Source: Ideonella sp. A 288 (GTDB lineage Bacteria; Pseudomonadota; Gammaproteobacteria; Burkholderiales; Burkholderiaceae_C). Taken from it: a DNA stretch of 64,000 nucleotides. Below, one piece after another: positions 10,192-27,053 of this stretch (within the stretch, counting starts at the first letter, position 1; each line of letters starts with the position of its first letter). The notes under the pieces were generated by a model, which ran no database searches, was not told the DNA's origin, and saw only the letters and a program-made list of their open reading frames with translations. The stretch spans positions 1 through 64,000 of the forward strand of contig NZ_MWLO01000163.1 of the NCBI RefSeq assembly GCF_002198735.1. Direction: 5' to 3'. A program made the position numbers and the translations under genes.

Positions 10192-13100
10192 ATGTGGATG
10201 ACCCGAGTCTCGATCGCCAACCCGGTGTTCGCCGCCATGGTGATGGTGGCGCTGTGCGTGCTGGGCCTGTTCTCGTACGTGCGCCTCGGTGTGGAGCAGA
10301 TGCCCGACATCACCTTCCCCGGCGCCTTCGTCGAGGTGATGTACCCGGGTGCGGCGCCCGAGGCGGTGGAGCGCGAGTTGATGAAGCCGGTCGAGGAATC
10401 GGTGAACAGCATCGCCGGCGTCAAGCGCATCACCTCGCGCAGCATGGAAGGCCGCGGGCAGATGAGCATCGAGTTCGCGCTGAATGCCGACATGGGCCGC
10501 GCGATGCAGGACGTGCGCGACCGCATCGCCGCGGTGCAGGCCGTGTTCCCGCGAGAGGCCAAGGCGCCGACGATCTCGCGCTTCAACAACGACAACAACC
10601 AGCCGATCGTCAACCTGGCGCTGGTCAGCCGTTGCGCGGTGCCGGCGCCCGCGCCATCCGTGCCGGGCGTGGCCGCCGCGGCCAGCCAGGCAGCCTTGGC
10701 GGCGCCTTGCACGGCCACGCGCAGCGCGCGAGAGCTGTCGGTGCTGGGCGAGAACGCCGTGGGCAAGCGGCTGCAGCGCGTGGAGGGTGTGGCCCGGGTG
10801 GACATCAGCGGCCTGACCGTGCGCGAGGTGCGCATCGACCTCGATCCGGTGCGCCTGCGAGCCTACGGCATCACGCCGGCCGAGGTGGCCACCGCGCTGC
10901 GCGAGGCCAACGCCGACCAGCCGGTGGGCCTGCTGTCCGACAGCACGCAGGACGCCATCCTGCGGGTGGAAGGCCGGGTGCGCGACCCACGCCAGTTCGA
11001 GCAGGTGGTGGTGGCCCGCCGCGGCAACCTGGCGCTGACCCTGGCCGACCTGGGCACCCTGGTCGAGCGCGAGAAGGAGGCCGATTCCACCGCCCGCATC
11101 AATGGCCAGCGGGCCATCAACTTCAACGTCTTCAAGCAGCAGGACGCCAACATCGTGGCCACCGGCGATGCCGTCAAGGCGGCGATGGACGAGGTGCGCA
11201 AGACGCTGCCGCCGGACGTGGAACTGCGGCTGGTGTATGCCGGCAGCGACTGGGTCAAGGGCTCGCTGGTGGGCCTGCGCCACACGCTGATCGAGGGCGC
11301 GCTGCTCACCGTGGCCATCGTCTTCCTGTTCCTGCACTCGTGGCGCTCGACCATCATCACCGGCCTCACGCTGCCGATCGCGGTGATCTCCAGCTTCATC
11401 GCCGTCTACGCCTTCGGCTTCACGCTGAACTTCATGACGATGATGGCGCTGTCGCTGTGCATCGGCCTGCTGATCGACGATGCCATCGTGGTGCGCGAGA
11501 ACATCGTGCGCCACGTGCACATGGGCAAAGACCACAAGACCGCCGCGCTCGAGGGCACCGACGAGATCGGCCTGGCGGTGATGGCCACCACCTTCGCGCT
11601 GTGCGCGGTGTTCGTGCCGGTGGCCTTCATGGGCGGCATCATCGGCAAGTTCTTCTACCCGTTCGGCATCACCGTGGTAGTGGCGGTGCTGGTGAGCCTG
11701 TTCGTGAGCTTCACGCTCGACCCGATGCTGTCGTCGGTGTGGAAGGACCCGCCGTCCGAGCGCCTGAAGCACCTGCCCGGCATCGGCCACGCCATCCGTG
11801 CCACCGATCGCGGCATGGACGTGCTGCACCGCTGGTACGAGCGCCTGATCGACTGGGCCTTCTCGGCCCGCCGCTACCGCCTGTGGCTGCCGGCCTGGGG
11901 CCGCGGCTTCGGCGCCGATGGCCGCCGCGACCGCAGCAGCCCGCGCCACTGGCGCCGCGCCACGCTGTCGCCACGCGGCGTGGTGATGGCCATCGGCGGG
12001 GCCAGCTTCGCCGCCGCCATCGGCCTGGGCGGACTGGTGGGCAGCGAGTTCGTGCCGCAGACCGACCAGGGCTACACCCAGCTGGCCTTGCGCCTGCCGG
12101 TGGGCTCCAGCCTGGACCGCACCGATGCCAAGGTGCGGCAGATCGAGGAGATCGTGCTGGCGATGCCCGAGGTGGCCACCGTGTCCACCTGGGTGGGCGG
12201 CGCCGGCCAGCGCAACCAGGCCTGGCTGAACATCGCGCTGAAGGACCGCGCCGACCGCAACCGCAGCCAGAAGCAGGTGGAAGATGCGATGCGCGAGCAG
12301 ATCGCGCGCATCCCCGGCGTGGACGCCGCCGTCGGCTTCGATCGGCCGGTGTACGTGGCCCTGCTCGGCAGCGACGCCGAGGGCCTGGCCAAGGTGGCCA
12401 CCGAATTTGCCGAGAAGGTGAAGCAGATCCCGGGCATCGTCGACGTGGAGCTGTCGGTCAAGCCCGGCCTGCCGGCCTACGCGGTGCGCCTGAAGCCCGG
12501 CGCGGTGCGCGAGCTGGGCCTGACCGCGCCACAACTGGCCGCGTCGCTTCGCGCCTATGTCAATGGCGACGCCGCCACCTACTGGACCACGCCGCAGGGC
12601 GACCAGGTGGAGGTGGTGCTGCGGCTGAACGAAGCCCAGCGCGAGCGCATCGACCAGCTGCGCGGCCTGCCGGTGGCCTTTGCCAAGGACGGCACGCCGA
12701 TCGCGCTGGACAGCGTGGCCACCATCGAGCCGGTGTTCAACCCCGAGATCATCCGCCGCCAGAACCTGCAGCGCCGCGAGGCCGTGTTCGCCGGCGTGCA
12801 GGGCCGATCCACCGGCGAGGTGGGCGACGACGTGCAGAAGCTCATCAAGGCCACCACGCTGCCGCCGGGCTACAGCTTCGACGTCGGCGGCCAGATGCAG
12901 CAGCAGGCCGAGGCCTTCAGCGGCCTGCTCAGCGCGATGGCGCTGGCGGTGATCTTCATCTACATCGTGTTGGCCAGCCAGTTCGGCAGCTTCCTGCAGC
13001 CGCTGGCCATCATGGCCAGCCTGCCGCTGGCGCTGATCGGCGTGATGCTGGCGCTGCTGCTGTGGCGCAGCACGCTCAACGTGTTCAGCATGATCGGGCT

Positions 13101-13512
13101 GGTGATGCTGATGGGCCTGGTGACCAAGAACGCGATCCTGCTGGTCGACTTCGCCAACCAGGCGCGCAAGGCCGGCGCCACGGTGCACGAGGCGCTGCGC
13201 CAGGCCGGCCTGGTGCGCATGCGCCCGATCATCATGACCACCGCCGCCATGGTCTTCGGCATGCTGCCGTTGGCGCTGGCGCTGAACGACGGCGGCGAAC
13301 TGCAGGCGCCGATGGGCCGGGCCATCATCGGCGGCGTCATCACCTCGACGCTGCTGACGCTGCTGGTGGTGCCGGTGCTCTACAGCTACCTGGTGCGCGA
13401 GCGCAAGCCCGAGGCCGCCCCGCAGGGCGAAAGCGATCCTGCGGCGCCCGCGGCCTTGCCTGGGTCGGGCGCCGGTGCCTGGCCGGCCCATGCGCCGGCC
13501 GATCGGAACTGA
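10192..13512 (+). CDS. RND efflux permease (HAE1/AcrB-like)
   Basis: Proton-driven inner-membrane pump of 1106 aa with the usual twelve helices: one at the N-terminus ([20 protein letters not shown]), groups around residues 360-520 and 905-1080, and two large periplasmic loops. The helix-4 motif [17 protein letters not shown] carries the paired Asp residues used in proton relay. GAGGAA lies upstream of the ATG. Oddities: an Ala/Pro-rich insertion with two Cys residues in the first periplasmic loop (codons near 10630-10730) and an Arg-rich stretch near residues 560-590 in the cytoplasmic linker. With the adaptor it forms a two-gene efflux operon; substrate unknown. Confidence 0.94.
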
Positions 13513-13667: not shown

Positions 13668-15221
13668 ATGGCCCTCGACTCCGACCGCGACATCGCGCAC
13701 TTCGCCCGGCGCCTGGCCGATCATGCTCCTTCGATGCTGGCGTACTGGGACACCCAGATGCGCTGTCGATTCGCCAACCGGGCCTATGAACTGCGGTTCG
13801 GGGTCGATCCCGACGAGCTGGTGGGCCGGTCGATCGTCGACCTGCTGGGGCCCCACCTCTATGCGCTGAACGAGCCGTACATCCGTGCCGCGCTGCGCGG
13901 TGAGTCTCAACAGTTCGAGCGCGTCGTCCCTGGGCCCGATGGCGTACAGCGACACAGTCTGGCGACCTACACGCCGGACGTGGTGGACGGACAGGTCGTG
14001 GGGTTCGTGGTGCAGATCACCGATGTGACGCCGCTCAAGGCGGTGCAGGATCAGTTGCAGGTCACCATCGCCAGCCTCGAGGCCGAGATCAGGCGTCGCC
14101 GCACGGTCGAGGAATCGCTGATCGACACGCAGCAGCGGGAGGTCGCCGAGAGCCGCTTCCGGCTGGTTTTCGAGGCCTCATCGAGTGCGCTCCTGATGCT
14201 GGATCGTGCGCATCGGATCGTGCTTCTCAACCAAAGGGCAGAACAGCTCTTTGGCTACCACCGAGACGAGTTGCTCGGCCAGTCGATCGAACGCCTGGTG
14301 CCGGAGTCTGCGCGCGCCGCCCACGCGGCCCAGGTGGCCGAATTCGTCGCGCGGTCGCACACCCGAGCGATGGGCATCGGGCGGGACTTGCGCGCCCGCC
14401 GCAAGGACGGCAGCGAAGTGGCCGTCGAGATCGGCCTCGACGCCATCGAAATGCCCGACGGCCGATACACGCTGGCGTCGGTGATCGACATCACGGAGCG
14501 CAAGCGCGACCACGACGAACTTCGTCGCAGCAACGCCGAGCTGGAGCAGTTCGCCTACATCGCTTCGCACGACTTGCAGGAGCCGCTGCGTATGGTGGCC
14601 AGCTACACGGAACTGCTGGCGCAGCGCTACAAGGGCCGGCTCGACGACAAGGCCGACAAGTACATCTACTATGCCGTCGATGGTGCCAAGCGCATGCAGC
14701 GCCTGGTGGCCGACCTGCTGGCTTTTTCTCGCGTCGGCTCGCAGGGCAAGCCGCTGATTCCCGTGGCCGTCGATGCGGTCGTGAGGCGCGCCGTGGCTGC
14801 GCTGCAGGCCTCGATGCTCGAATCGGGCGCTAGGGTGGATGCGCAAGGCCTGCCGACCGTGCTGGGCGACGAAACCCAGTTGGTGCAGCTGTTCCAGAAC
14901 CTGATCGGCAACGCCATCAAGTTTCGTGCCGAACCCGCGCCGCACATCATCATCCTCGCCACGCGACAGCGGGAACGATGGGTCTTCGAGGTCAAGGACA
15001 ACGCCATCGGCATCGAGATGCAGTATGCCGAACGCATCTTCCTGATGTTCCAGCGCCTGCACGAGCGGGGCACTCACGAAGGCAGCGGCATCGGCCTGGC
15101 CATTGTCAAGCGCATCGTCGAACGCCACGAGGGCCAGATCTGGGTGGAATCGGTGCCGGGTCGCGGCACGAGCTTCTTCTTCACACTGGCATCGGCAGAA
15201 GCCGGCACCGCGCCGCCATGA
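13668..15221 (+). CDS. PAS-PAS sensor histidine kinase
   Basis: A soluble 517-aa kinase. PAS1 covers residues about 10-125, a coiled-coil linker 125-165 and PAS2 165-285 (SALLMLDRAHRIVLLNQRAE). The HisKA segment has the phospho-His in FAYIASHDLQEPLRMVASYT, the form common in phytochrome-like kinases. The N box (FQNLIGNAIKF) and G2 (GSGIGLAIVKRI) are intact. The G1 box reads DNAIGI: the first Gly of D-x-G-x-G is Ala, which could lower ATP binding. No cognate regulator is adjacent on this strand. It is convergent with the kaiC-linked kinase gene 44 nt away. Confidence 0.9.
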   Translation: MALDSDRDIAHFARRLADHAPSMLAYWDTQMRCRFANRAYELRFGVDPDELVGRSIVDLLGPHLYALNEPYIRAALRGESQQFERVVPGPDGVQRHSLATYTPDVVDGQVVGFVVQITDVTPLKAVQDQLQVTIASLEAEIRRRRTVEESLIDTQQREVAESRFRLVFEASSSALLMLDRAHRIVLLNQRAEQLFGYHRDELLGQSIERLVPESARAAHAAQVAEFVARSHTRAMGIGRDLRARRKDGSEVAVEIGLDAIEMPDGRYTLASVIDITERKRDHDELRRSNAELEQFAYIASHDLQEPLRMVASYTELLAQRYKGRLDDKADKYIYYAVDGAKRMQRLVADLLAFSRVGSQGKPLIPVAVDAVVRRAVAALQASMLESGARVDAQGLPTVLGDETQLVQLFQNLIGNAIKFRAEPAPHIIILATRQRERWVFEVKDNAIGIEMQYAERIFLMFQRLHERGTHEGSGIGLAIVKRIVERHEGQIWVESVPGRGTSFFFTLASAEAGTAPP

Positions 15222-15265: not shown

Positions 15266-16744
15266 CTATTCGACCGCTCGACCGATGCGTGGCAGCACGG
15301 CGTAGAACTCGCTTCCGTGACCGATGCTGCTGCTGACACCGACGGTCCCACCTTGGGCTTCGACGAGCCGTTTGGTCAGGGCCAGGCCCAGGCCCGTGCC
15401 CTGGTGCTGCCTGGCCGACCCGGCGTCGAGTTGGTGAAACTCGGTGAACAGCTTGGCGATGTCCGACGGCGCGATGCCGAGGCCGTTGTCCCGCACCTCC
15501 ACGCGAAAGCGGTGCTCACCTTCCGCCGCCACGCGCACCGACACCTGGCTGTGGTCGGCCGTGAACTTCAGCGCATTGGACAGGTAGTTGTAGAGCACCT
15601 GCTTGAAGCGGCCGGGGTCCAGCTCAACCTCCACGAGCGTCGGGTCGACCTCTACCGCGATGTCGATGCCCTTCTTCGCCGCTGCCTCGCCCAGGACGGC
15701 CTTGACCTCTTCCGTCAGCTCGAGCAGGCTCACCGGTTCAGGCGCGAAGCCGAGCTTGCCGGCCTCGACCTTGGCCAGGTCGAGCACGTCGTTGATCAGT
15801 TGCAGCAGGTGCCGGCCACTGGACAGGATGTGGCCCAGGAACAGCTCGTGCTTCGGCGACGTGGGGCTCACCACACCGTCGCGCAGCAACTGCGAGAAGC
15901 CGATGATGGCGTTCAGGGGCGTCCGGAACTCATGGGACATGTTGGCCAGGAATTCGCTTTTCAGCCGGTTGGCGGCCTCGAAGCGGCGGTTCTCGAACTC
16001 CAGTTCGGCGCTGCGGGCCTGCAGGGCTGAGGCCCGCTTTCGTTCGGTGACGTCGCGGACCGAGGCCAGCCAGACGGGCTCGTCGTCCCATTCGATGCGA
16101 ACGACGCGCATCTCGCAGTCCCTGTGGCCGTCGGGGTGCGGGATCGTGATGTCCGCTGGCTCTGCGTCCAGGACGGAGAAGCCCAGCGGCTCGCTCATCA
16201 GCACCTCGCGACTGCGTCCGAACATGTCGATCGCCGCCTGATTGACATAGCGCACCTGACCGAACTCGTTGGCCAGCACCATGCCGTCCGGCGCGGCATC
16301 GAGCAAGACCTGAAACTGGCGCTGCTGGGCCCGCTTGCGGTCCATGATCTGCAGCACGCTGCGCCAGAACAACCGGCTGTTCGACTCCTGTTTGCCGAAC
16401 AGGTCTTCGGCGCCTTCACTGCGGGCGAGCCGCCGCAGTTCGTCGCTGGCATGGCCCGAAATGGCGATGATCGGCGCCTCATGGGTCAGGATCCTGACCC
16501 GTCGAACCGTCTCGATGCCTTGTGAGTCGGGCAGGTTGAGATCGAGGATGATGGCGTCGACCTTTTCCCCGGACGAAAGCAGTTCGATGGCGGCCGCCAG
16601 GGTCGGGGCACGGTTGATCACGAATCGCTGTGCCGTGGACTGCTCCAGCAACTCGCGGGTGAGGTCGGCGTCGGCCGGGTTGTCTTCGACCAGGAGCACA
16701 TGCCTCGGTTGCAGTGCGGCAGAACAGGCGAACGCGGATCTCAT
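15266..16744 (-). CDS. REC-PAS-histidine kinase, last gene of the kai run
   Basis: A 492-aa protein with an N-terminal receiver (LLVEDNPADAD; phospho-acceptor in IILDLNLPDSQG), a PAS domain (residues about 150-250; DAAPDGMVLANEFGQVRYVN), HisKA (FLANMSHEFRTPLNAIIGF) and HATPase (YNYLSNALKF; DNGLGI; GTGLGLALTK). It begins 28 nt after kaiC, so it is probably cotranscribed. Receiver, PAS and post-PAS sequences closely match the first half of the hybrid kinase at 24012-27053 (shared GAEDxFGK, SRLFxRSVL and CEMRV segments), so the two are paralogues flanking the same cluster. Histidine kinases next to kaiBC are known in other bacteria and are thought to read KaiC state; here that is inference. Confidence 0.9.
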   Translation of the reverse strand: MRSAFACSAALQPRHVLLVEDNPADADLTRELLEQSTAQRFVINRAPTLAAAIELLSSGEKVDAIILDLNLPDSQGIETVRRVRILTHEAPIIAISGHASDELRRLARSEGAEDLFGKQESNSRLFWRSVLQIMDRKRAQQRQFQVLLDAAPDGMVLANEFGQVRYVNQAAIDMFGRSREVLMSEPLGFSVLDAEPADITIPHPDGHRDCEMRVVRIEWDDEPVWLASVRDVTERKRASALQARSAELEFENRRFEAANRLKSEFLANMSHEFRTPLNAIIGFSQLLRDGVVSPTSPKHELFLGHILSSGRHLLQLINDVLDLAKVEAGKLGFAPEPVSLLELTEEVKAVLGEAAAKKGIDIAVEVDPTLVEVELDPGRFKQVLYNYLSNALKFTADHSQVSVRVAAEGEHRFRVEVRDNGLGIAPSDIAKLFTEFHQLDAGSARQHQGTGLGLALTKRLVEAQGGTVGVSSSIGHGSEFYAVLPRIGRAVE

Positions 16745-16772: not shown

Positions 16773-18299
16773 TCAGACAGCCGCGTCCTCGAACATGCCG
16801 CCGAGGCGGGCCCGTTCATCGTTGAACGTGTAGGTGGGCGTCCCGGTCAGGATGCCGTGCACGCCGCGGAAGGGCGCCTGCACATGCAGGCCGTGGCTGT
16901 CGATCACGTACTCGCGGATGCCCTTGTCGTGGAAGGTTCCACGCATCTTCAGCACGGTCAGTCCGCGCCGCATCTCGCCATGCAGTTCCACGTAGCGCAG
17001 CAGGATGATGGTGTCGGTGATGGTGGAGATGTGGGTCTCGGTGATCGACTCGCCGCCGGTCAGCATCGACGTCGTGTTGGTGAACAAGCCGGTGATCTCG
17101 AGGTGCTTGATCGTGCTGGTCAGGGCGATCACGAACTCGCGGAACGACTTCGGTGTGGACACCCGCTCGAAGGCCGACATGCTGTCGATGGCGACGCGCT
17201 GGGGCTGGAAGGCACGGATGTCGCGCTTGATCTGAAGCAGGTGGTCTTCCAGGCCCATCACTTCCGGATAGCGGCAGATGATGCGCAGCAAACCGTCGCG
17301 CTCAGCCTTTTCGAAGTCCACACCCCATGACGCGGCATTTCTCGTCAGCTGTTCGCGGCTCTCCTCGGCGCCGAACAGCAGGGCTCGCTCCCCGGCCTCG
17401 ATGGCGGCCTTGATGTACTGCGAGACCATCAGCGTCTTGCCGGTGCCGGTGGCGCCGCTGACCAGGATGATGGAATCGCGGTACATGCCGCCGGCGCACA
17501 TCTTGTCCAGTTCGGGCACGCCCGACGAGACACGGATCTGCGACGAGCGCTGTTTCAGCTCGATCGCCGACAGCGGAATGATCGTGACGCCGTCCTCGGA
17601 GTCGATGGTGAAGGGGTACTCGCCCTTGTGGTGCGTGGCGCCGCGGAACTTCAGGATCTCGACCGTGCGGCGCCGCTTCTCGTTCTCGAGCCGGTTGCGC
17701 AGCACGATCACGTTGTCGGCCACGAATTCCTCCACGCCCCAGCGCCCGACGCCGCCCTCTTCCACGGTTCTTTCCATCGTCACCAGGGTGGTAACGCCCA
17801 GCATGCGCAGGCCGGCCGCCACCCGGTGCAGCTCGCGCCGGATGATGTTGGGATCGGTCAACTGCGGGAACAGCGCGCCCACCGCGTCCAGGATCACGCG
17901 CTTGGCCTTGACCGAGTGGATCGCATGTTCGATTCGCGCCAGCAGGCCCGACAGGTCGTACGGACCCGTGGCGACCACATCCTCACCCGGCTCGGGCGTC
18001 ACGTCCACCACCGCGATGCGTTTGCTTTCGACCAGGCCTTCGAGATCCCAGCCGAAAGAGCGCACGTTCTCCATCAGGTCCGCCGGCGCCTCCTCGAAGG
18101 TGACGAAGACGCCGGACTCGCCGTAGTCCCGCACGCCGGCCAGCAGGAACTGCAGCGCCATCACTGTCTTGCCGCTGCCGGCGGTGCCCGACAGCAGCGT
18201 GCTGCGGCCGGCCGGGATCCCGCCGTTGGCGATCTGGTCGAACCCGACGATGCCGGTGGGCAACTTGCCGAGTTCCTGGGGAGGATGTCGCGATGTCAT
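16773..18299 (-). CDS. kaiC: circadian-clock-type ATPase/kinase KaiC
   Basis: A 508-aa double-domain RecA-type ATPase that forms hexamers. CI Walker A GTAGSGKT (38-45) with catalytic E69/E70; CII Walker A GATGTGKT (282-289) with E312/E313. The CII autophosphorylation segment (T420 and S425/T426 in ITETHISTITDT) matches the S431/T432 region of Synechococcus KaiC. The tail after residue 480 (GILTGTPTYTF) resembles the A-loop segment that KaiA binds, and is slightly short (508 versus about 519 aa). The ATG overlaps the kaiB stop (TGATG); a GTG one codon earlier is possible. Full conservation of both active sites implies a working kinase/ATPase. Whether it oscillates cannot be told from sequence. 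Confidence 0.95.
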   Translation of the reverse strand: MTSRHPPQELGKLPTGIVGFDQIANGGIPAGRSTLLSGTAGSGKTVMALQFLLAGVRDYGESGVFVTFEEAPADLMENVRSFGWDLEGLVESKRIAVVDVTPEPGEDVVATGPYDLSGLLARIEHAIHSVKAKRVILDAVGALFPQLTDPNIIRRELHRVAAGLRMLGVTTLVTMERTVEEGGVGRWGVEEFVADNVIVLRNRLENEKRRRTVEILKFRGATHHKGEYPFTIDSEDGVTIIPLSAIELKQRSSQIRVSSGVPELDKMCAGGMYRDSIILVSGATGTGKTLMVSQYIKAAIEAGERALLFGAEESREQLTRNAASWGVDFEKAERDGLLRIICRYPEVMGLEDHLLQIKRDIRAFQPQRVAIDSMSAFERVSTPKSFREFVIALTSTIKHLEITGLFTNTTSMLTGGESITETHISTITDTIILLRYVELHGEMRRGLTVLKMRGTFHDKGIREYVIDSHGLHVQAPFRGVHGILTGTPTYTFNDERARLGGMFEDAAV

Positions 18300-18589
18300 C
18301 ACGGCACCGACTTGATCAGCCGTTCCACATCCAGCCCGACGAGCACCTTCACCCGGTCGGACAGGTCACCGATGATCTTGCGCACCGGCTCGGGCAGTTG
18401 TTTCACCAAGGTCGGCGTGGCCAGGATCTTGGCATGCTCGGCCAGGTCGGGATGCTCCAGCACGTCGATCACTTCGACATGGAACTGGCCCGGCAGATCC
18501 GTTTCACAGATGTTGTTCAGGTTGTCGATGGCACGCTGCGACTGCGCACTGCGGCCGGTGATGAACAAGCGAAGCTTGAAGACTGTCAT
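18299..18589 (-). CDS. kaiB: clock protein KaiB
   Basis: A 96-aa thioredoxin-like fold-switching protein that binds the CI ring of KaiC. The conserved core KILATPTLVKQLPEPVRKII followed by GDLSDRVKVLVGLD is that of true KaiB. The N-terminal strand KLRLFITG and the helix with RAIDNLNNIC also fit. The acidic C-terminal tail of cyanobacterial KaiB is missing. AAGG lies upstream of the ATG, which overlaps the stop of the REC-KaiA-like gene by 4 nt; the stop overlaps the kaiC start, so all three genes are translationally coupled. Confidence 0.95.
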   Translation of the reverse strand: MTVFKLRLFITGRSAQSQRAIDNLNNICETDLPGQFHVEVIDVLEHPDLAEHAKILATPTLVKQLPEPVRKIIGDLSDRVKVLVGLDVERLIKSVP

Positions 18590-19473
18590 GGCGAAATACC
18601 TTGCGGATCGCGGCGCCGGTGACCAACCCGGTAGTAGTCCACCAGCAGCCCCATCATTTCGACCGCCAGCAGGCGGGCCTCGAAAACGATGGTGTGCGAG
18701 TGGGGATCGTCGTAGAGCGATAGCGCTCGGTCGAGCGCCGCGACGTGAACTTCGAGCAGGTCGCGCGGGCCGCCAGCGGCGTCTCCGAGCGTCGTGACAA
18801 TGATTTCCATGGCCCGTCGGGGGGCCACCACCTGATCGCATTCGCGCATCAGATAGGGTTCGAGCAGGGCGAAGTAGGACTGCACGACGGCCTCGTAGGT
18901 GGCCGGGCTGCGCAGGGAAACGGCACCGGTCCCCGCCAGTGCGGCGGTGACGGTGGTCGAATGGCCGGCCGAGGACATCGAGCGGTAATGCGCCAGCGTC
19001 CGTTGCAGTTCGCGCAGTTGCACTTCGCGCATGCGGCTGACGGCATAGCCGATGGCGCGCTTCAGGTTCTGGGTGCGCACCTCGCTCTTGGGCAGGTAGT
19101 CCTGCGCCCCGGCGTCGATGCAGGCCAGGGCGAGATCCTCGTCCTCAACGCCCGTCAGCACGACGATGGGCACCTCGGCGGCAACCTCTCGCATCGTCTT
19201 GACGACATCGACGCCTTGGCCGTCGGGCAGGCCCAGGTCGAGCACGATCACGTCGACCGGGGTGGATTGCAAGGCCTGCACCGCGGCGGCCACGGCGGGC
19301 ACGTGGACGATCTGGAAACGGTCGCGATGCTGCTCGCTGAGCATGTCGCTCACCAGTTGAGCGTCGCCCGGGTTGTCTTCGACCAGGAGCAGCACCGGTG
19401 TGCCCTGCGCGCCGTGTTGAAGTGATGCACTGGCCATGGTTCGACCGTGGTTCATGGATTCGATGGCCGCCAT
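18586..19473 (-). CDS. response-regulator receiver fused to a KaiA-like C-terminal domain
   Basis: A 295-aa two-domain protein directly upstream of kaiB. Residues about 25-150 form a complete receiver: E32/D33, phospho-acceptor D79 (IVLDLGLPDGQG), T107, K129 (DYLPKSE). After a linker (150-190) comes an all-helical domain (193-286) that matches the KaiC-activating domain of KaiA in pattern: L-L-E-V-H-V then a conserved Asp four residues on (239-248), and R-L followed by L-x-D-Y-Y-R (267-282), against LEIHVELMD and RL...LCEMYR in Synechococcus KaiA (recalled, not searched). The same architecture is described for cyanobacterial KaiA3. It would stimulate KaiC phosphorylation under control of a kinase. 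Starts at 19455 and 19437 are also possible. The receiver is certain; the KaiA-like call rests on motif pattern and gene position. Confidence 0.75.
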   Translation of the reverse strand: MAAIESMNHGRTMASASLQHGAQGTPVLLLVEDNPGDAQLVSDMLSEQHRDRFQIVHVPAVAAAVQALQSTPVDVIVLDLGLPDGQGVDVVKTMREVAAEVPIVVLTGVEDEDLALACIDAGAQDYLPKSEVRTQNLKRAIGYAVSRMREVQLRELQRTLAHYRSMSSAGHSTTVTAALAGTGAVSLRSPATYEAVVQSYFALLEPYLMRECDQVVAPRRAMEIIVTTLGDAAGGPRDLLEVHVAALDRALSLYDDPHSHTIVFEARLLAVEMMGLLVDYYRVGHRRRDPQGISP

Positions 19474-19506: not shown

Positions 19507-19932
19507 CTACACAGGTCGGGCGGACTGCCCGGCCACGAGGGCCGCCACGATGTCGCGCAGATGCTCGAAGTCGAGGTGTTTGTTCAGGAAGCGATCGGCG
19601 CCGTCGACCAGGCACTGCCTGGCAATGGCAGGTTCCGTGTGGGAACTCAGGATGACGATGTAGCAGTGGTCCTGCGCGCACGCCTGCCGCTCGGCGGCGC
19701 GGATGGCTTGCGCCACCTGCAGGCCGGTGAGGTCGGGCATCTGGAAGTCGAGCACGGCCAGATCGGGCTTGTGCTCCACCCACAGGCGCAGTGCCTGGGC
19801 ACCGTCGCTGGCCGGGCCGATGACATCGGCGCCGGCGTCTTGCAGCACCTCGACGACCTGCCGGGCCACGACCGGCGCATCGTCGGCGACCAGCGTGCGG
19901 GGGCGAAAGCTGCTGAGTGAGTTCACGGCCAC
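19507..19932 (-). CDS. single-domain response regulator
   Basis: A 141-aa receiver without output domain. D17/D18, phospho-acceptor D62 (AVLDFQMPDLTG) and K118 are present; the usual Thr is Ser (ILSSHT). It lies 33 nt before the REC-KaiA-like gene and after an 81-nt gap from the LuxR-type gene, which holds a 19-bp palindrome. It may carry phosphate between the neighbouring kinases and the Kai proteins; this is inferred from position. Confidence 0.85.
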   Translation of the reverse strand: MAVNSLSSFRPRTLVADDAPVVARQVVEVLQDAGADVIGPASDGAQALRLWVEHKPDLAVLDFQMPDLTGLQVAQAIRAAERQACAQDHCYIVILSSHTEPAIARQCLVDGADRFLNKHLDFEHLRDIVAALVAGQSARPV

Positions 19933-20013: not shown

Positions 20014-20646
20014 TCACTCGACCAGGCCGTTCTTCAAGGCGTAACGGGCAATGTCGACGTGGCTGATCAAGCCGGTCTGCTCACGGATCCTGGCCAGATA
20101 GGTGGCCACGGTCTTCTCGCTCAGCCCGAGGTCGAAGCCGATTTCCTTGATGGCCCGACCCAGCGCAATGCGGCGAAAGATGTCGAGTTCACGTTCCGAC
20201 AGATCCTCATGCGGGAGCGTCGGCTTTCTCTGGCGCAGCGAGCGTGCGATGGCCGCCGCCGTCTCGGCCAGCAGGTAGGTGCCGCCCGCGGTCACCCGCT
20301 CGATGGCCATCAGCAATTCGTCGGCGGCCTGGTGCTTGTGCAGCAGGCCGTTGGCGCCCGCCTTCATGGTCTCGATGACGTACTCGATCTCGCTGCTGCC
20401 CGTGAGCACCAGGACCGGCACGGACGCTTCACGGCCGCGGATGCGCCCGAGCAGCTCGATGATGCCTGGGCCAGGCATCATCACGTCGAGCAGCATCAGG
20501 TCCCAGGTGCGCGTCGGCAGTTGCTCCAGCACCGCATCGCCGTCGGCCAGTTCGGTCACCTCGACGTCGGGGTAACGCTCGAGCACCAGTTCACGCACGC
20601 CGCGTCGTGTGACGGCGTGGTCGTCGGCGATCAGGACATGTCGCAT
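20014..20646 (-). CDS. LuxR/NarL-family response regulator
   Basis: A 210-aa DNA-binding regulator. Receiver residues are D8/D9, phospho-acceptor D54 (LLDVMMPGPG), T82 and K104. A LuxR-type helix-turn-helix at about 145-205 includes LSERELDIFRRIALGRAIKE and LSEKTVATYLARI. It starts 10 nt after the HisKA_3-type kinase gene, the usual cognate pairing for this regulator class. It probably controls transcription of this cluster or distant targets; the palindrome just downstream is a candidate site. I chose ATG 20646, since translation further upstream would run into the kinase gene. Confidence 0.92.
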   Translation of the reverse strand: MRHVLIADDHAVTRRGVRELVLERYPDVEVTELADGDAVLEQLPTRTWDLMLLDVMMPGPGIIELLGRIRGREASVPVLVLTGSSEIEYVIETMKAGANGLLHKHQAADELLMAIERVTAGGTYLLAETAAAIARSLRQRKPTLPHEDLSERELDIFRRIALGRAIKEIGFDLGLSEKTVATYLARIREQTGLISHVDIARYALKNGLVE

Positions 20647-20656
20647 CCGGCCCCCG

Positions 20657-22156
20657 CTACGGTCGCATCTTGGGGACGGTGACGCAACCGACGGCCCCTC
20701 CGCCAGGGAGAGACTCGAGCCGGAAGCTGCCGCCGAGCGATTCGGCACGCTCCGTCATGCCCAGGAGCCCCAGCAAGCCGCTGCGGGTGAGCAGGTCGCC
20801 GGGCAAGCCCACGCCGTCATCCTGCACCTCCAGGATCCAGCGGTCTGCATCGTCGGACAAGCCAATCTGCACCCGCTTCGCACACGCATGCCTGGCCACA
20901 TTCGTCAGCAGTTCCTGGAAGATCCGGAACAGGGCCGTGGCCACCGCGGGCTTCGGCACCTCATGCGGCTGCACGTGGACCACGGTCTGCACCCCAGAGC
21001 GTGTCTCGAAGCGGCGCGCTTCGTCGCGCAGGGCCGACGACAGGCCCAAGGCATCCAGAGCGCTGGGCCGCAGCTCGACGGCGATGCGTTGCACGGTCTG
21101 GACGGTCTGGTCCACCAGGGCGTCGGCCTCTGCCAGCTTGGGCGTCAACGCGGCGGCGTCCGCACCAGCCACTGCGCGGCGCATCAGCCAGCGGATGTCC
21201 ATCTTCAATCCGGTCAGCAATTGCCCGAGGCCGTCGTGCACCTCCCGAGAGATGCGCGTGCGTTCCTCTTCCTGCAGGTTGCGCAAGCGGCTGGTCAAGG
21301 CGCTCATTCGCTGCTCCCTTGCGGCCTGTTGCTCGACCAGGCGCTGCAGTTCGGCGTCACGGCGCTTGCTCTCGGTCACATCGCGCAGGATGGCGGCCAG
21401 GGCTTGCGTGCCGCCTGAAGCGTCGTGGATGACGCTGGTGATCACCGACAGGTTCAGCGGCCGGCCGTTCCTGTGAAAGAGGACGACTTCTTCCACGCCA
21501 CCCGCGTCGGCCCCGCGCGGCACCGGGAAGACCCGGCGTTCGTTCGGCCAGCCCACCTCGTCGGCCTGCGGCCGGATGATTTCACGCACTTGCCGGCCCA
21601 CGGCTTCTTCAGCCGTGTACCCGAAGATGCGCTCCGCGCCACGGTTCCAGCTTGTGATGACGCCATCGATCGAACTGCTGACGATCGCGTCGTAGGACGA
21701 TTCCACGATCGCCGCCAGCCGCACCTGGAGCGCATCGGCCCGCTGCCGCTCCGCACTTTCCTGGGTCCGGGTGATGGCGTAACCGATGGCCCGCCGCAGG
21801 GACTGCGGCCTGAGGTCGTTCTTGGCCAGGTAATCCTGGGCGCCCGCCGCCACGCACTCCAACGCCAGTTCGTCGTCCTCCATGCCGGTCAGGACGACGA
21901 TCGGAACCGTGGGTGCGAGGGCTCGGATCGCCTTCACGCAATCGACGCCGAAACCATCGGGCAGGTTCAGGTCGAGCAGGACCACATCGAAGGTCGCCGC
22001 CGGCAATCGCTTCCCGGCCTGCGCCAGATCCGACACATGGTCGTGGCTGCCGGCGCTGGCGTACTCGCCGTCGAGGAGGGCCGCGATGAGCCCTGCGTCG
22101 CCAGGGTTGTCTTCCACCAGCAGGACGCGAAGGGGGGTCTGCGGGCCATGCTTCAC
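20657..22156 (-). CDS. REC-PAS-HisKA_3 sensor histidine kinase
   Basis: A 499-aa soluble kinase. N-terminal receiver ([11 protein letters not shown]; phospho-acceptor in [22 protein letters not shown]), PAS (residues about 150-265; [20 protein letters not shown]), then a NarX/DegS-type HisKA_3 dimerisation domain with the phospho-His in [20 protein letters not shown] and a small HATPase ([21 protein letters not shown]). Its receiver resembles that of the REC-KaiA-like protein (GAQDYL then RRAIGYA or KRAIGYA). Cotranscribed with the LuxR-type regulator, very likely its partner. The input receiver implies it sits partway along a relay. Confidence 0.92.
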
Positions 22157-22578
22157 GGCAACCTCACCACCGTGAACCAGAAGCTCTCGATGGCGTGCAC
22201 GATGGCCTGAAAGGCTTCCAGGCCCACCGGTTTGGTGACATAGCAGTTGGCTCCCAGTTCGTAGCTCTTGGCGATGTCCTGCTCGGCATCGGAACTTGTC
22301 AGCACCACCACCGGGATCACGCGCAGGGCTTCATGGCGATTGATCTCCGCCAGAACCTCCCTGCCGCCCATCTTGGGCAGGTTCAAGTCCAGCAGGATCA
22401 GGTCGGGGGCCGTGGCGGTGGCAAAGGGCGGTCTGCGGAGCAGGAAGTCCAGCGCCTGAACGCCGTCGGAGACCACGTCGATGTGCACCATCAGCTTGCC
22501 GTCCTGAAGCGTTTCGCGGGTCAGGTCGGCGTCACCCGGGTTGTCTTCGACCAGCAGCACATGAATGGGCGTCGTCAT
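22153..22578 (-). CDS. Rcp1-like single-domain response regulator
   Basis: A 141-aa receiver of the Rcp1 type, which usually partners phytochrome-like histidine kinases. E11/D12, phospho-acceptor D64 ([17 protein letters not shown]) and the C-terminal [10 protein letters not shown] with its Lys are conserved. Its stop overlaps the start of the HisKA_3 kinase gene by 4 nt, making it the first gene of the minus-strand kai run. The 262-bp gap upstream, shared with the divergent diguanylate cyclase gene, holds a possible promoter on the plus strand but no clear minus-strand box. Confidence 0.9.
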
Positions 22579-22840: not shown

Positions 22841-23929
22841 ATGGCACCCCATCCAAAGCTTCCGGACATCGGCAATCCTGGGCCGAGCGCTCACAAGCTG
22901 CTGCTGGTCGACGACGACCCCATGGTCATCGCTCTTCTCGGGAACACTCTGGAAGGTTTTGGCCGGCTGCAGTTCGCCACCTCCGGGATCGACGCCTTGC
23001 GCCTGGCGCAAGACACCGTGCCGGACCTGATCCTGCTGGACATCGAGATGCCTGGCATGGGTGGCTTCGAGGTCTGCAGGGCCCTGAAGGCCAATCCCCA
23101 GTTGGCGGACGTGCCCGTCATCTTCATCACCAGCCACGACGCCGGGGAGCACGAGGTCACCGGCCTTGCGCTGGGTGGGGTCGACTTCATCTGCAAGCCG
23201 CTGCGGCCGGCGAGCGTGGTGGCGCGGGTGCGCATGCACCTGCGAATGAAGGACATGTCGGACATGCTGCGCCGCTCGGCGTACACGGACGGACTGACCG
23301 GCATCGCCAACCGGCGCCAGTTCGATGACCTGCTGGGACGCGAATGGCACCGTGCGGAACGCACGGCATCGCCGATCTCTCTGTTGATGATCGACATCGA
23401 CGCCTTCAAGAATTTCAACGACCGATACGGCCACCCGGCGGGCGACAAATGCCTGCAGCGGGTGGCGTGGGCCGTCCAGCAGGCCGGCCACCGCCCGGCC
23501 GACCTGGCCGCCCGTTTTGGCGGCGAGGAATTTGCCATGGTGTTGCCGAACACCGATGCAGCCGGCGCCGAAGTCGTGGCCCTGCACCTGCTCGAGGCCA
23601 TCGACGCATTGGCCATACCGCATGCGGCGTCACCGGCGCATCCTTTTGTCAGCGTGTCGATCGGAGCGTCGTCGTTCGACGGAAGTTGCCAGAACTGGGT
23701 GGGCCATCCCGCCGACTCGCGGCTCGGCACGCTCGGGAGACACCAGCCCGTGGCCGATCTGCTGATGGCGGCCGACCGGGCCTTGTACACAGCCAAGCAG
23801 GCCGGACGCCGAGGCGCCTACTTCCTGTCCCTGGATGACCTCGACGGTCCGGGCCAGGCAATCCGCCTGTCCCGCCCGAGCGAGACCGTCTGCGAGCCGC
23901 TCATGGCCGTGGCTTCGAGCGATGGATGA
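22841..23929 (+). CDS. REC-GGDEF diguanylate cyclase (response regulator)
   Basis: A 362-aa PleD/WspR-like enzyme that would make c-di-GMP from two GTP. The receiver (residues about 20-140) has an Asp-rich pocket (LLVDDDPM) and phospho-acceptor in [13 protein letters not shown]. The GGDEF domain (about 150-330) has the active-site motif GGEEF, the metal/nucleotide segment [18 protein letters not shown] and an inhibitory I-site RPAD five residues before GGEEF, so product inhibition is likely. Divergent from the kai run; its stop region overlaps a possible upstream start of the hybrid kinase gene. It offers a c-di-GMP output for whatever kinase phosphorylates it. Confidence 0.93.
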
Positions 23930-24011
23930 AGCCGTGACGGCATCGCAAGCCGGTGGCTCGACCCACCAGGGGTCTTGTGCACGCTGCCGGCCCCAGCCGG
24001 GGCTGGCAAGC

Positions 24012-27000
24012 ATGCTGAGCAGCGTGAAGCGCGTCGTCCTCGTCGAGGACAACCCGGGCGACGCCTTCATGGCCTGCGAGCGTCTGGCGGAGGCCCCTGA
24101 AGCCCACGTGCAGGTCGAGATCGCCACGAACCTGGCGGAGGCCTTGCGGATCCTGGGCACGGGTCCCGCCGATGTCATCCTGCTCGACCTGAACCTGCCC
24201 GATTCGAGCGGCATGCAGACCCTGCGTCGAGTGAAGGCCGTGGCCGGCTTGGCGCCGATCATCGTCGTGTCGGGGCTGTTCGACGACACCCTGCGGCGTG
24301 CGGCGCTGTCCGAGGGCGCGGAAGATGTGTTCGGCAAGGACGAGATCAACAGCCGCCTGTTCAGCCGCAGCGTGCTCTACGTCATCGAACGCAATCGCGC
24401 GCGCATGCAGCATCGCAGGCTGCACGATCTGCTCGACGCCACGCCGGACGCGATCCTGGTGGCCAACGAGTCCGGCCAGGTCCGCTTCGTCAACGCCGCG
24501 GCCACCGAACTCTTCGATCGCACGCGCGACGACTTGTTTGCCGAGAAGCTGGCCTTCTCCGCCACGCAGGGCGAGCCGGTCCAGCTCGCGATCCCCAGGC
24601 CGAGCGGCGCGCGCAGTTGCGAGATGCGCGTCGCCCACCTCGAGTGGGACGGCGAACCGGTGCAGTTGGCATCGATCCGCGACACGACCGAACGGACCCA
24701 GGCCGAAGCGCTGCGTGCGCGCAGCCACGAACTCGAGCTTCAGAACCAGCGCATCCAGGAGGCCTGCCGGCTGAAGACCGAGTTCCTGGCCAACATGAGC
24801 CACGAGATCCGGACCCCCATGAACGCCATCATCGGCATGGCGCATCTGCTGGACAAGACACGGCTGACCGGTGAGCAGCGGTCCTTCCTCGGCAAGATCC
24901 AGATTGCCAGTCGCTCCCTGCTGGGTGTGATCAACGATGTGCTTGACCTGTCGAAGATCGAGGCCGGCGAGGTCCTGCTCGAGGACCTCCCGTTCGACCT
25001 GCCCAAGCTGCTGCGCGAACTCGGTCAGCTGCTGCAGGACCAGGCGCAGGCCAAGGGGATCGAACTCGTGGTCCACCCCTCCGTCGGCGCGGCCCGCCGC
25101 GTGCGCGGCGATGTCACCCGGGTGCGCCAGATCCTCATCAACCTGCTGGGCAACGCACTGAAGTTCACCGAACAGGGGCAGGTCGAACTGGCGGTGACGA
25201 GCACCGTGCTGGCCCCGCACATTCCCGCCCTGCGCTTCGAAGTCCGCGACACCGGCATCGGCATCGCGCTGGCGGACCTGGATCGCCTGTTTCAGCCCTT
25301 CACGCAGGCCGACGCGTCGACCACGCGGCGCTTCGGTGGAACCGGGCTCGGTCTGTCGATCGTGCAGCAGCTGACGCAACTGATGGGTGGGGAGGTCGAG
25401 GTCACGAGCCAGCCTGGTCGTGGCAGTGTCTTCGGCGTGACCCTGCCGCTGTCGCCTGTGTCCGAACAGGTGGATGGCACCGAAGGGTCGCCGCAGACCC
25501 TGGAGGTGCTGGTCTCCGAGGGCGACAAGGGCAAGCTGCAGCGACTGCGCGCGATGGCGCGTTCGCTGGGCTGGCACCTGGAGGCCGTCGCACTGGGCCC
25601 GGCGACGCTGCCCCAACTGGCCGGGCGCCTGGCCAGCGGCCACGTGCCCGATGTCTGGATCATCGATGCCGAGCACGATCCCGAGCCGAAGGCGCGCGCC
25701 TTGGCCGCCCTGCGGCAGACCGTCGGCGACGACCGGTGGCCGCCCTGCGTGGCCCTGTGCCTGGCCGACTCGTCGCCCGCATGCTTCGATCACATGGCAG
25801 ACACCTGGCTGAGGCATCCGCTGTCGGCCGCCGGGCTGTTCGAGTCCGTCCTCACTGCACTGGAGCGGCGGCAAAGGCCGACCGACCGGCTGATGCAGCT
25901 GACTCAGCTGGACGCCGTCGGCGTCCGGTGGCTGAGTGGCGTCCGATTGCTGATCGTCGACGACAGCGAAGTCAACCTCGAGGTGGTGCGTCGCATCCTG
26001 GAGCGCGAAGGTGCCCGGGTGGAGTCATTCGACAACGCGTTCGGCGTCCTGGCGCGCCTGCAGCAGGGCGCGGCCGACATCGATGCGGTGCTGATGGACG
26101 TGCAGATGCCCGGCATGGATGGCAATGCCGCCACGCGGGCCATCCGCGGGGACCTGGGCCTGACGACACTGCCGGTGATCGCACTGTCGGCCGGCGCCTT
26201 CGTCTCCGAACGCCGCCGTGCGATCGAGGCGGGCATGGTCGATTTCGTCTCCAAGCCACTCGATCCGGACACCTTGATCCGGACCGTGCGCCAGCACGTC
26301 GAGCGCAGTCGTGGCACGAGCTTGGGGCTCGAGCGCCGCTGCAAGGGCAAACGAACTGGATCTCCCGCCTGGCCGCACATCGAAGGCATCGACAGCCGCG
26401 ACGTTGCCCACCGCCTCGAGAACGACGTCGAGATCTTTACCGTCATGCTGGCCAGCCTGCTGCGCGAGTTCGGCGCTGGAGGGCCGGCCTTCACGGCGCT
26501 CGACCTGAGCCAGGATGCAGGCCGCAAGGCATTTGCCGCCCGCATGCACAAGCTGCGCGGCAGCGCGGGCATGCTCGGAGCCTCGATTCTCCAGCGCCTG
26601 GCCGGCGATGCCGAGGCCGCGGCCCGACGTGGCGCCAGCGCCGCACAGATCGAGCAAGCCTGCATCGCCGTGAACGAACAACTGGCCCAACTGATGGATC
26701 AGGCTGGCCACCTGCTGGAGGCGCGGTCGGCCGCGCGCTCGGAGGCAGGGCCTAAGCAGACCGTCGCGCCGATCGTGGCGGCCGACCTCGAACCGCTGAT
26801 CTCGCTGATGCAGGCCCAGGACTTGGCCGCCCTGACGATGTTCGCAGCCCTCGTGCCTGCGCTGCGCGCTGCGCTGGACCCGACGACGGCCATGCTGTTG
26901 CAGGAAGCGGTCGAGCGGCTGGAGTTCGCGCGTGCCATCGGATTGCTGCGCACGCTTCTGGGCGAACTCCGGGCGGCCGCCGGGGACGCCGGCCACTCGA

Positions 27001-27053
27001 CCGTCGCCGGTGATCTGGGCGAACCGGCCAGCGCAGGGCCGATCCACTGCTGA
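24012..27053 (+). CDS. hybrid sensor kinase REC-PAS-HisKA-HATPase-REC-HPt
   Basis: A large soluble phosphorelay protein (1013 aa from this ATG). Order: receiver ([13 protein letters not shown]), PAS (about 145-245), HisKA (NMSHEIRTPMNAIIGM), HATPase (DTGIGI; GTGLGLSIVQ), a degenerate receiver-like stretch (about 500-620), a true second receiver (AVLMDVQMPGMDG) and HPt (MHKLRGSAGMLGA). The REC-PAS half is a paralogue of the kaiC-linked kinase. An in-frame ATG at 23922 overlaps the diguanylate cyclase stop and would add 30 residues of low-conservation sequence. I prefer 24012 because the receiver begins just after it. The terminal HPt could feed phosphate to the stand-alone regulators nearby. 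Confidence 0.9.
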   Translation: MLSSVKRVVLVEDNPGDAFMACERLAEAPEAHVQVEIATNLAEALRILGTGPADVILLDLNLPDSSGMQTLRRVKAVAGLAPIIVVSGLFDDTLRRAALSEGAEDVFGKDEINSRLFSRSVLYVIERNRARMQHRRLHDLLDATPDAILVANESGQVRFVNAAATELFDRTRDDLFAEKLAFSATQGEPVQLAIPRPSGARSCEMRVAHLEWDGEPVQLASIRDTTERTQAEALRARSHELELQNQRIQEACRLKTEFLANMSHEIRTPMNAIIGMAHLLDKTRLTGEQRSFLGKIQIASRSLLGVINDVLDLSKIEAGEVLLEDLPFDLPKLLRELGQLLQDQAQAKGIELVVHPSVGAARRVRGDVTRVRQILINLLGNALKFTEQGQVELAVTSTVLAPHIPALRFEVRDTGIGIALADLDRLFQPFTQADASTTRRFGGTGLGLSIVQQLTQLMGGEVEVTSQPGRGSVFGVTLPLSPVSEQVDGTEGSPQTLEVLVSEGDKGKLQRLRAMARSLGWHLEAVALGPATLPQLAGRLASGHVPDVWIIDAEHDPEPKARALAALRQTVGDDRWPPCVALCLADSSPACFDHMADTWLRHPLSAAGLFESVLTALERRQRPTDRLMQLTQLDAVGVRWLSGVRLLIVDDSEVNLEVVRRILEREGARVESFDNAFGVLARLQQGAADIDAVLMDVQMPGMDGNAATRAIRGDLGLTTLPVIALSAGAFVSERRRAIEAGMVDFVSKPLDPDTLIRTVRQHVERSRGTSLGLERRCKGKRTGSPAWPHIEGIDSRDVAHRLENDVEIFTVMLASLLREFGAGGPAFTALDLSQDAGRKAFAARMHKLRGSAGMLGASILQRLAGDAEAAARRGASAAQIEQACIAVNEQLAQLMDQAGHLLEARSAARSEAGPKQTVAPIVAADLEPLISLMQAQDLAALTMFAALVPALRAALDPTTAMLLQEAVERLEFARAIGLLRTLLGELRAAAGDAGHSTVAGDLGEPASAGPIHC

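Follow-up and report, generated by a model that had tools for sequence, protein, structure and literature searches.

A KaiA3-type kaiABC cluster in Ideonella sp. A 288 and its kinase and regulator neighbourhood

The stretch of DNA analysed here (the window: positions 1 to 64,000 of contig NZ_MWLO01000163.1, assembly GCF_002198735.1, from Ideonella sp. A 288) carries kaiB and kaiC behind a gene for a receiver fused to a helical domain. The locus raises the question of whether that fusion protein is a counterpart of KaiA and, if it is, what would signal to the timer through the receiver. A sequence-only reading of the window had placed a 295-aa fusion directly upstream of kaiB with a 4-nt overlap, and we recovered the same coordinates and overlap. 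The three genes are as follows.

18586 to 19473, minus strand: kaiA3-type gene, 295 aa, with a receiver at residues 29–137, a long linker helix at 134–179 and a KaiA-like helical domain at about 185–283.
18299 to 18589, minus strand: kaiB, 96 aa, ATG start, 4-nt overlap with the kaiA3 stop.
16773 to 18302, minus strand: kaiC, 509 aa, GTG start, 4-nt overlap with kaiB; a cyanobacterial-like double-domain KaiC with an A-loop-like tail.

The window contains a real KaiA3-type kaiABC cluster, a further member of a published kind. The name KaiA3 was given by Kobler et al. 2024 (PMC11372060) to a protein with a receiver and a KaiA-like domain, encoded upstream of kaiB3. The sections of that paper used here report rhythms of KaiC3 with KaiA3 in vitro, the presence of KaiA3 in Rhodospirillum and Bradyrhizobium, and the suggestion that a histidine kinase, not yet identified, provides its input. 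In R. rubrum, according to an excerpt of PMC10931921, Rru_A3293 precedes kaiB and kaiC. The novelty implied by the sequence-only reading, both of the fusion ahead of kaiB and kaiC and of its gating by a kinase, therefore falls away. A 2026 review (PMC13421787), in the part available, still describes the input signal of KaiA3 as unidentified, and the useful addition of this locus is the kinase and regulator neighbourhood of kaiA3.

The kai genes and the KaiA-like domain

The kaiB and kaiC genes had been called with both Walker A sites, the glutamate pairs and the S/T sites of KaiC in place, and all of these were found. KaiC scores 647.8 bits against TIGR02655 circ_KaiC (cut-off 546.25), with Walker A boxes beginning at residues 39 and 283, EE pairs at 70 and 313, and the S/T phosphosite motif SITETHISTITDT from residue 419. 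The 96-aa protein belongs by profile match to the KaiB family (PF07689, E 5.3e-29, 100.2 bits, gathering score 27), though it lies under the NCBIfam equivalog cut-offs for circ_KaiB (102.8 vs 145.3 bits) and PRK09301 (103.9 vs 110 bits). The agreement of genes, overlaps and motifs with the earlier description is far beyond chance. Promoter and terminator scans at the locus gave no signal exceeding shuffles.

The KaiA-like domain is less readily recognized by single searches. At E ≤1, the C-terminal domain of the window's protein matches 0 Pfam families, hence not PF07688, which is matched by 7 of the 40 aligned members of the domain set. A profile built from those 40 domains, without any KaiA, returned 13 matches from the PDB, of which ranks 1–8 are KaiA chains (E 0.01–0.12); a first profile of three rows only had found no KaiA there. 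The predicted fold of the domain places KaiA at Foldseek ranks 1–12. For the full-length model, the best 50 Foldseek matches listed are all proteins with a receiver, because this domain dominates the comparison. With KaiA on top in both the profile and the fold comparison, the proposal that the helical domain is of the type by which KaiA stimulates KaiC is borne out as a relationship, and the motifs cited for it (LEVHV...D at 240–248 and RL...DYYR at 267–282) are where they had been placed. That the C-terminal domain is related to KaiA is supported by its gene context as well as by the profile ranks and the predicted fold.

Gene context was assessed by a context-blind search with the C-terminal domain over 398 genomes. 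It gave 27 matches, the window's included; the loci are not independent, since they come from only 22 genomes in 9 genera. In 26 of the 27, kaiC follows closely in the same orientation; the remaining one is at a contig end. Among 15 named loci, kaiC is downstream in 13; at L054, kaiB and kaiC adjoin divergently, and L052 has none within 1.9 kb.

We aligned 30 full-length KaiA3-type sequences, the window's and 29 relatives. All 30 have D238, G275 and Y281, and R267, E272 and R282 occur in 29 of 30. Residues M241, D242, E251, L265 and D267 are fixed in cyanobacterial KaiA according to a table in PMC8113500. Mapped through the alignment of the 40-domain profile to KaiA, with Y198 in the table as the anchor for numbering, D242 corresponds to D248, M241 to L247, L265 to A270 and D267 to E272, where 29 of the 30 sequences have E, and E251 falls close to a gap.

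The receiver had been read as complete and phosphorylatable; it is complete and looks phosphorylatable: Pfam Response_reg covers residues 29–137 (E 6e-20), and E32, D33, D79, T107 and K129 are intact. The whole site is kept in 27 of the 30 aligned sequences, the window's among them, and is degraded in both Bradyrhizobium sequences and in Acuticoccus yangtzensis. In the Bradyrhizobium receivers (loci L045 and L056, both in genomes with Photo_RC genes), D33, T107 and K129 are gone and D79 is kept, an apparent decay to a pseudo-receiver.

The window's KaiC is 57% identical to the cyanobacterial 7dy1 (which we take to be T. elongatus KaiC), 62% to PDB 8zn5 and 41% to the KaiC of Cereibacter sphaeroides. 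A tree made without a KaiC3 reference places it with cyanobacterial KaiC and away from that of C. sphaeroides, supporting a nearer kinship to the former. Within the tree, it groups with the KaiCs of a metagenome-assembled genome (MAG) titled Rubrivivax (90% identical) and a MAG titled Acidobacteria, followed by those of Bradyrhizobium, Jiella and Acuticoccus. The Acidobacteria-titled MAG carries a kaiA3BC set (L044, 380–3057) whose KaiC is 88% identical to the window's, and this is either a recent transfer or a binning error.

KaiC had also been said to keep an A-loop-like tail. The tail GILTGTPTYTF...MF is present and is of the short type GIL.G.P...... ..MF common to kaiA3-linked KaiCs, looser in L055, L091 and L092. 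Three KaiCs without an adjoining kaiA3 (C. sphaeroides, genome G498 and the second KaiC of the window's genome) keep G.L.GT and then run into a divergent extension of 66–74 residues. The Sphingobium and Aquisphaera KaiCs end early in the tail alignment. The second KaiC is encoded in a further kaiB-kaiC pair on contig 133 (L075, 5724–7957); it is 33% identical, has a long C-terminal extension, and sits on a very long branch of unsure placement.

Kinases and regulators around kaiA3

The kai genes are surrounded by two-component genes. The kinases are called HK1 to HK4 here.

22153 to 22575, minus strand: single-domain response regulator, Rcp1-like by its PDB matches.
20657 to 22156, minus strand: HK1, receiver-PAS-HisKA_3 kinase; its receiver is the nearest to that of KaiA3 found in the genome (52–54%).
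20014 to 20748, minus strand: NarL-type response regulator, receiver and GerE HTH; its true start is probably a later ATG.
19507 to 19932, minus strand: single-domain receiver, flanked by the NarL-type regulator gene and kaiA3.
15266 to 16744, minus strand: HK2, receiver-PAS-HisKA-HATPase kinase directly after kaiC.
13668 to 15221, plus strand: HK3, PAS-PAS-HisKA-HATPase kinase, convergent with the kai genes; of the type that precedes the Rcp1-like regulator in relatives.
23835 to 27053, plus strand: HK4, hybrid kinase of receiver-PAS-kinase make-up that carries a further receiver; the first of its two receivers ranks among the three nearest to that of KaiA3.
22841 to 23929, plus strand: diguanylate cyclase of receiver-GGDEF type, lying divergently beside the start of the kai gene run.
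10192 to 13512, plus strand: AcrB-family RND efflux pump, adjoining HK3.

The Rcp1-like regulator, HK1, the NarL-type regulator, the single receiver, kaiA3, kaiB, kaiC and HK2 form a run of eight genes on the minus strand, which strand and spacing suggest to be one operon. In the PDB, the Rcp1-like regulator matches 5te9 best (134.8 bits), followed by RcpA, a phytochrome regulator (116.4 bits), and Rcp1 (115.3 bits); the next best match to it in the genome reaches 87.7 bits. A bacteriophytochrome was considered as its partner and rejected: Pfam (E ≤0.001) finds no phytochrome domain in 7 upstream sensor open reading frames of kaiA3 loci. PAS kinases make up six of these, and 4 of the six also have a dCache/HK sensor and HAMP; the seventh is a PAS-only fragment.

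Counting homologues of the Rcp1-like regulator at 100 bits or more, on the same strand and upstream of kaiA3, gives 20 loci of the 27 with one, and its neighbour is often a PAS kinase. One of the seven others, L019, is explained by its short flank, as the longer copy, L049, has the regulator. Of the 15 named loci, 8 have it (L047 included), 5 lack it (both Bradyrhizobium, Tritonibacter, Nitrospinota and Legionellales), and the flank is insufficient in 2. A kinase like HK3 stands before the regulator in L043, L046–L049, L051, L052, L084, L086 and L088–L091. A kinase like HK2 or HK4 follows kaiC in L043, L045, L046, L048, L049, L051, L056, L057, L084–L087, L089, L091 and L092; there is none after kaiC in, for example, L050, L053, L055 and L083. 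The PAS kinases and the Rcp1-like regulator are candidates for the missing input of KaiA3, and the conserved neighbourhood names kinases and regulators amenable to testing in vitro.

Of the genome's 17 matches to the KaiA3 receiver (E ≤1e-8), the nearest belong to HK1 (52%; 54% in a direct comparison), HK4 (36%) and HK2 (38%), all in the window. The simplest reading of this likeness would be duplication inside the cluster; that these receivers share a phosphate donor may further be supposed. We found no report of kaiA3 and Rcp1 together in the open-access literature, nor of such a kinase and Rcp1-like neighbourhood, except that a paper on Ramlibacter, in the part available, describes kinases beside kaiC or kaiB and reports no kaiA or kaiB there.

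Several relatives show other arrangements. In tandem double clusters (L081, 3703–9000, in G116; L091, 5028–9959, in G806), kaiA3-kaiB-kaiC is followed by a divergent second set on the same strand, the last kaiC of L081 being cut off where the L081 sequence ends. In L034, L036, L037 and L042, the order is kaiB, a kaiA3-like gene, a second kaiB and kaiC, and the KaiA-like protein is of a divergent subfamily in which the proline of GPRD is replaced by A. In L054 (4705–6372, Nitrospinota), the KaiA-like domain is in a 555-aa frame divergent from kaiB-kaiC.

Distribution and phototrophy

The C-terminal domain occurs in 22 of the 398 sampled genomes and 9 of 213 genera, which suggests that proteobacteria have kaiABC-type sets more often than one would expect if their timers were KaiA-less. 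Among 21 genomes of the genus, a close KaiC is found only in the window's, the next best being 41% identical; among 399 of the family, only the window's has a convincing C-terminal match, four further matches (E 0.002–0.008) looking like chance; among 274 of the class, two others match. The kai locus was likely acquired by transfer. The C-terminal domain has no match at E ≤1 among 72,556 plasmid records. KaiC matches appear in 285 of these, all below 60% identity, and three that were inspected have no gene annotated as KaiA.

Two Photo_RC genes (PF00124, best E 1e-112) are present in the 7.0-Mb genome, and the host is therefore probably a purple phototroph; its KaiC likeness to the Rubrivivax-titled MAG agrees with a betaproteobacterium. 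An overall link of kaiA3 loci with phototrophy was considered and rejected. Photo_RC genes occur in 31 of the 398 genomes but in 2 of the 22 domain-bearing ones (the window's and G1038), and 4 of 16 further searched genomes have them (both Bradyrhizobium, both Jiella); G1038 and the Jiella mangrovi genome are apparently identical and counted in both sets.

A post-translational timer and its relatives

Gene order, domain make-up, homology and the conserved neighbourhood lead us to regard the locus, with fair confidence, as a KaiA3-KaiB-KaiC post-translational timer in which a PAS kinase of the cluster would phosphorylate the receiver and so tune KaiA activity. The KaiA-like domain would dimerise and grip the A-loop tail of KaiC, raising KaiC autophosphorylation, and KaiB would oppose it. 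Phosphorylation of the receiver, presumably at D79, would feed an environmental signal into the timer, and the kinase adjoining kaiC and the NarL-type regulator would be the likely outputs. Single profile and fold scores for KaiA are weak, an RsbR-type fold tying in Z; the KaiA identity is settled by the conserved kaiC context. The receiver is degraded in 3 of 30 sequences, and kinase gating therefore cannot be essential everywhere.

More tentatively, and with somewhat less than even confidence, we propose that KaiA3 is the receiver of a dedicated two-component input module, an upstream PAS kinase and Rcp1-like regulator with a second PAS kinase after kaiC, that travels with kaiABC in proteobacteria and at least into Acidobacteriota. 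If so, the clock activator would be switched by phosphorylation, the clock would be reset by a kinase and not by quinone binding, and the tandem clusters would be coupled double timers on the same input.

The rival that survives best is compatible with the proposed timer, which needs no oscillation: the KaiA-type module may be no self-sustained clock but a stress or hourglass timer that runs once, or a simple switch. KaiB-KaiC systems of other proteobacteria are hourglass timers or stress responses, according to the sections of PMC11372060 used here, and reaction-centre genes are absent from some genomes with related loci. Set against this are a KaiC not close to that of C. sphaeroides, the KaiA-like gene and the two Photo_RC genes; we lean away from it, as quite possible but doubtful. 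It is unlikely that the receiver is purely structural, a dimerisation module unphosphorylated in the cell. Canonical KaiA does work with a pseudo-receiver without the aspartate (PMC11372060, same sections), and catalytic residues are lost in 3 of the 30 sequences, but 27 keep the whole site, and several kinases are encoded in the cluster, along with receivers of close kinship. We consider it improbable that the helical domain forms a sensor or partner-binding bundle of the RsbR/RsbU type and that the protein relays a two-component signal to KaiB-KaiC while leaving KaiC autophosphorylation unstimulated: the N-terminal domains of RsbR and RsbU are a similar helical bundle, but none of their chains is among the 13 PDB profile matches, where KaiA takes eight, KaiA leads the Foldseek ranks, the gene here, unlike theirs, is in the KaiA position ahead of kaiB and kaiC, and KaiC keeps its A-loop-like tail.

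The KaiA3 timer proposed here can be set beside three known systems. C. (Rhodobacter) sphaeroides, whose plasmid kaiC we take to be the published hourglass system, likewise has a proteobacterial kaiC-kaiB with a kinase adjoining. Its more distant KaiC has an extension of ~70 residues instead of the short tail, and no KaiA-like gene is among the listed neighbours in an incomplete gene table. Canonical cyanobacterial KaiA (PF07688; 1R8J, 1Q6A) has the same predicted fold, and the C-terminal alignment is colinear; its N-terminal pseudo-receiver lacks the aspartate, whereas the protein here has a true receiver with D79 and the full site. H271 of S. elongatus KaiA is L276 here. This histidine (270 in T. 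elongatus) is reported to be important for KaiA function; an open-access search for it returned no text containing the term. The nearest comparison is KaiA3-KaiB3-KaiC3 of Synechocystis sp. PCC 6803. By its published description, KaiA3 there (Sll0485) likewise joins an aspartate-bearing receiver to a KaiA-like four-helix domain, and its gene is likewise upstream of kaiB and usually kaiC. Unlike that system, the one in the window belongs to a probably phototrophic proteobacterium of another lineage and is accompanied in its gene run by an Rcp1-like regulator and two kinases of the receiver-PAS type.
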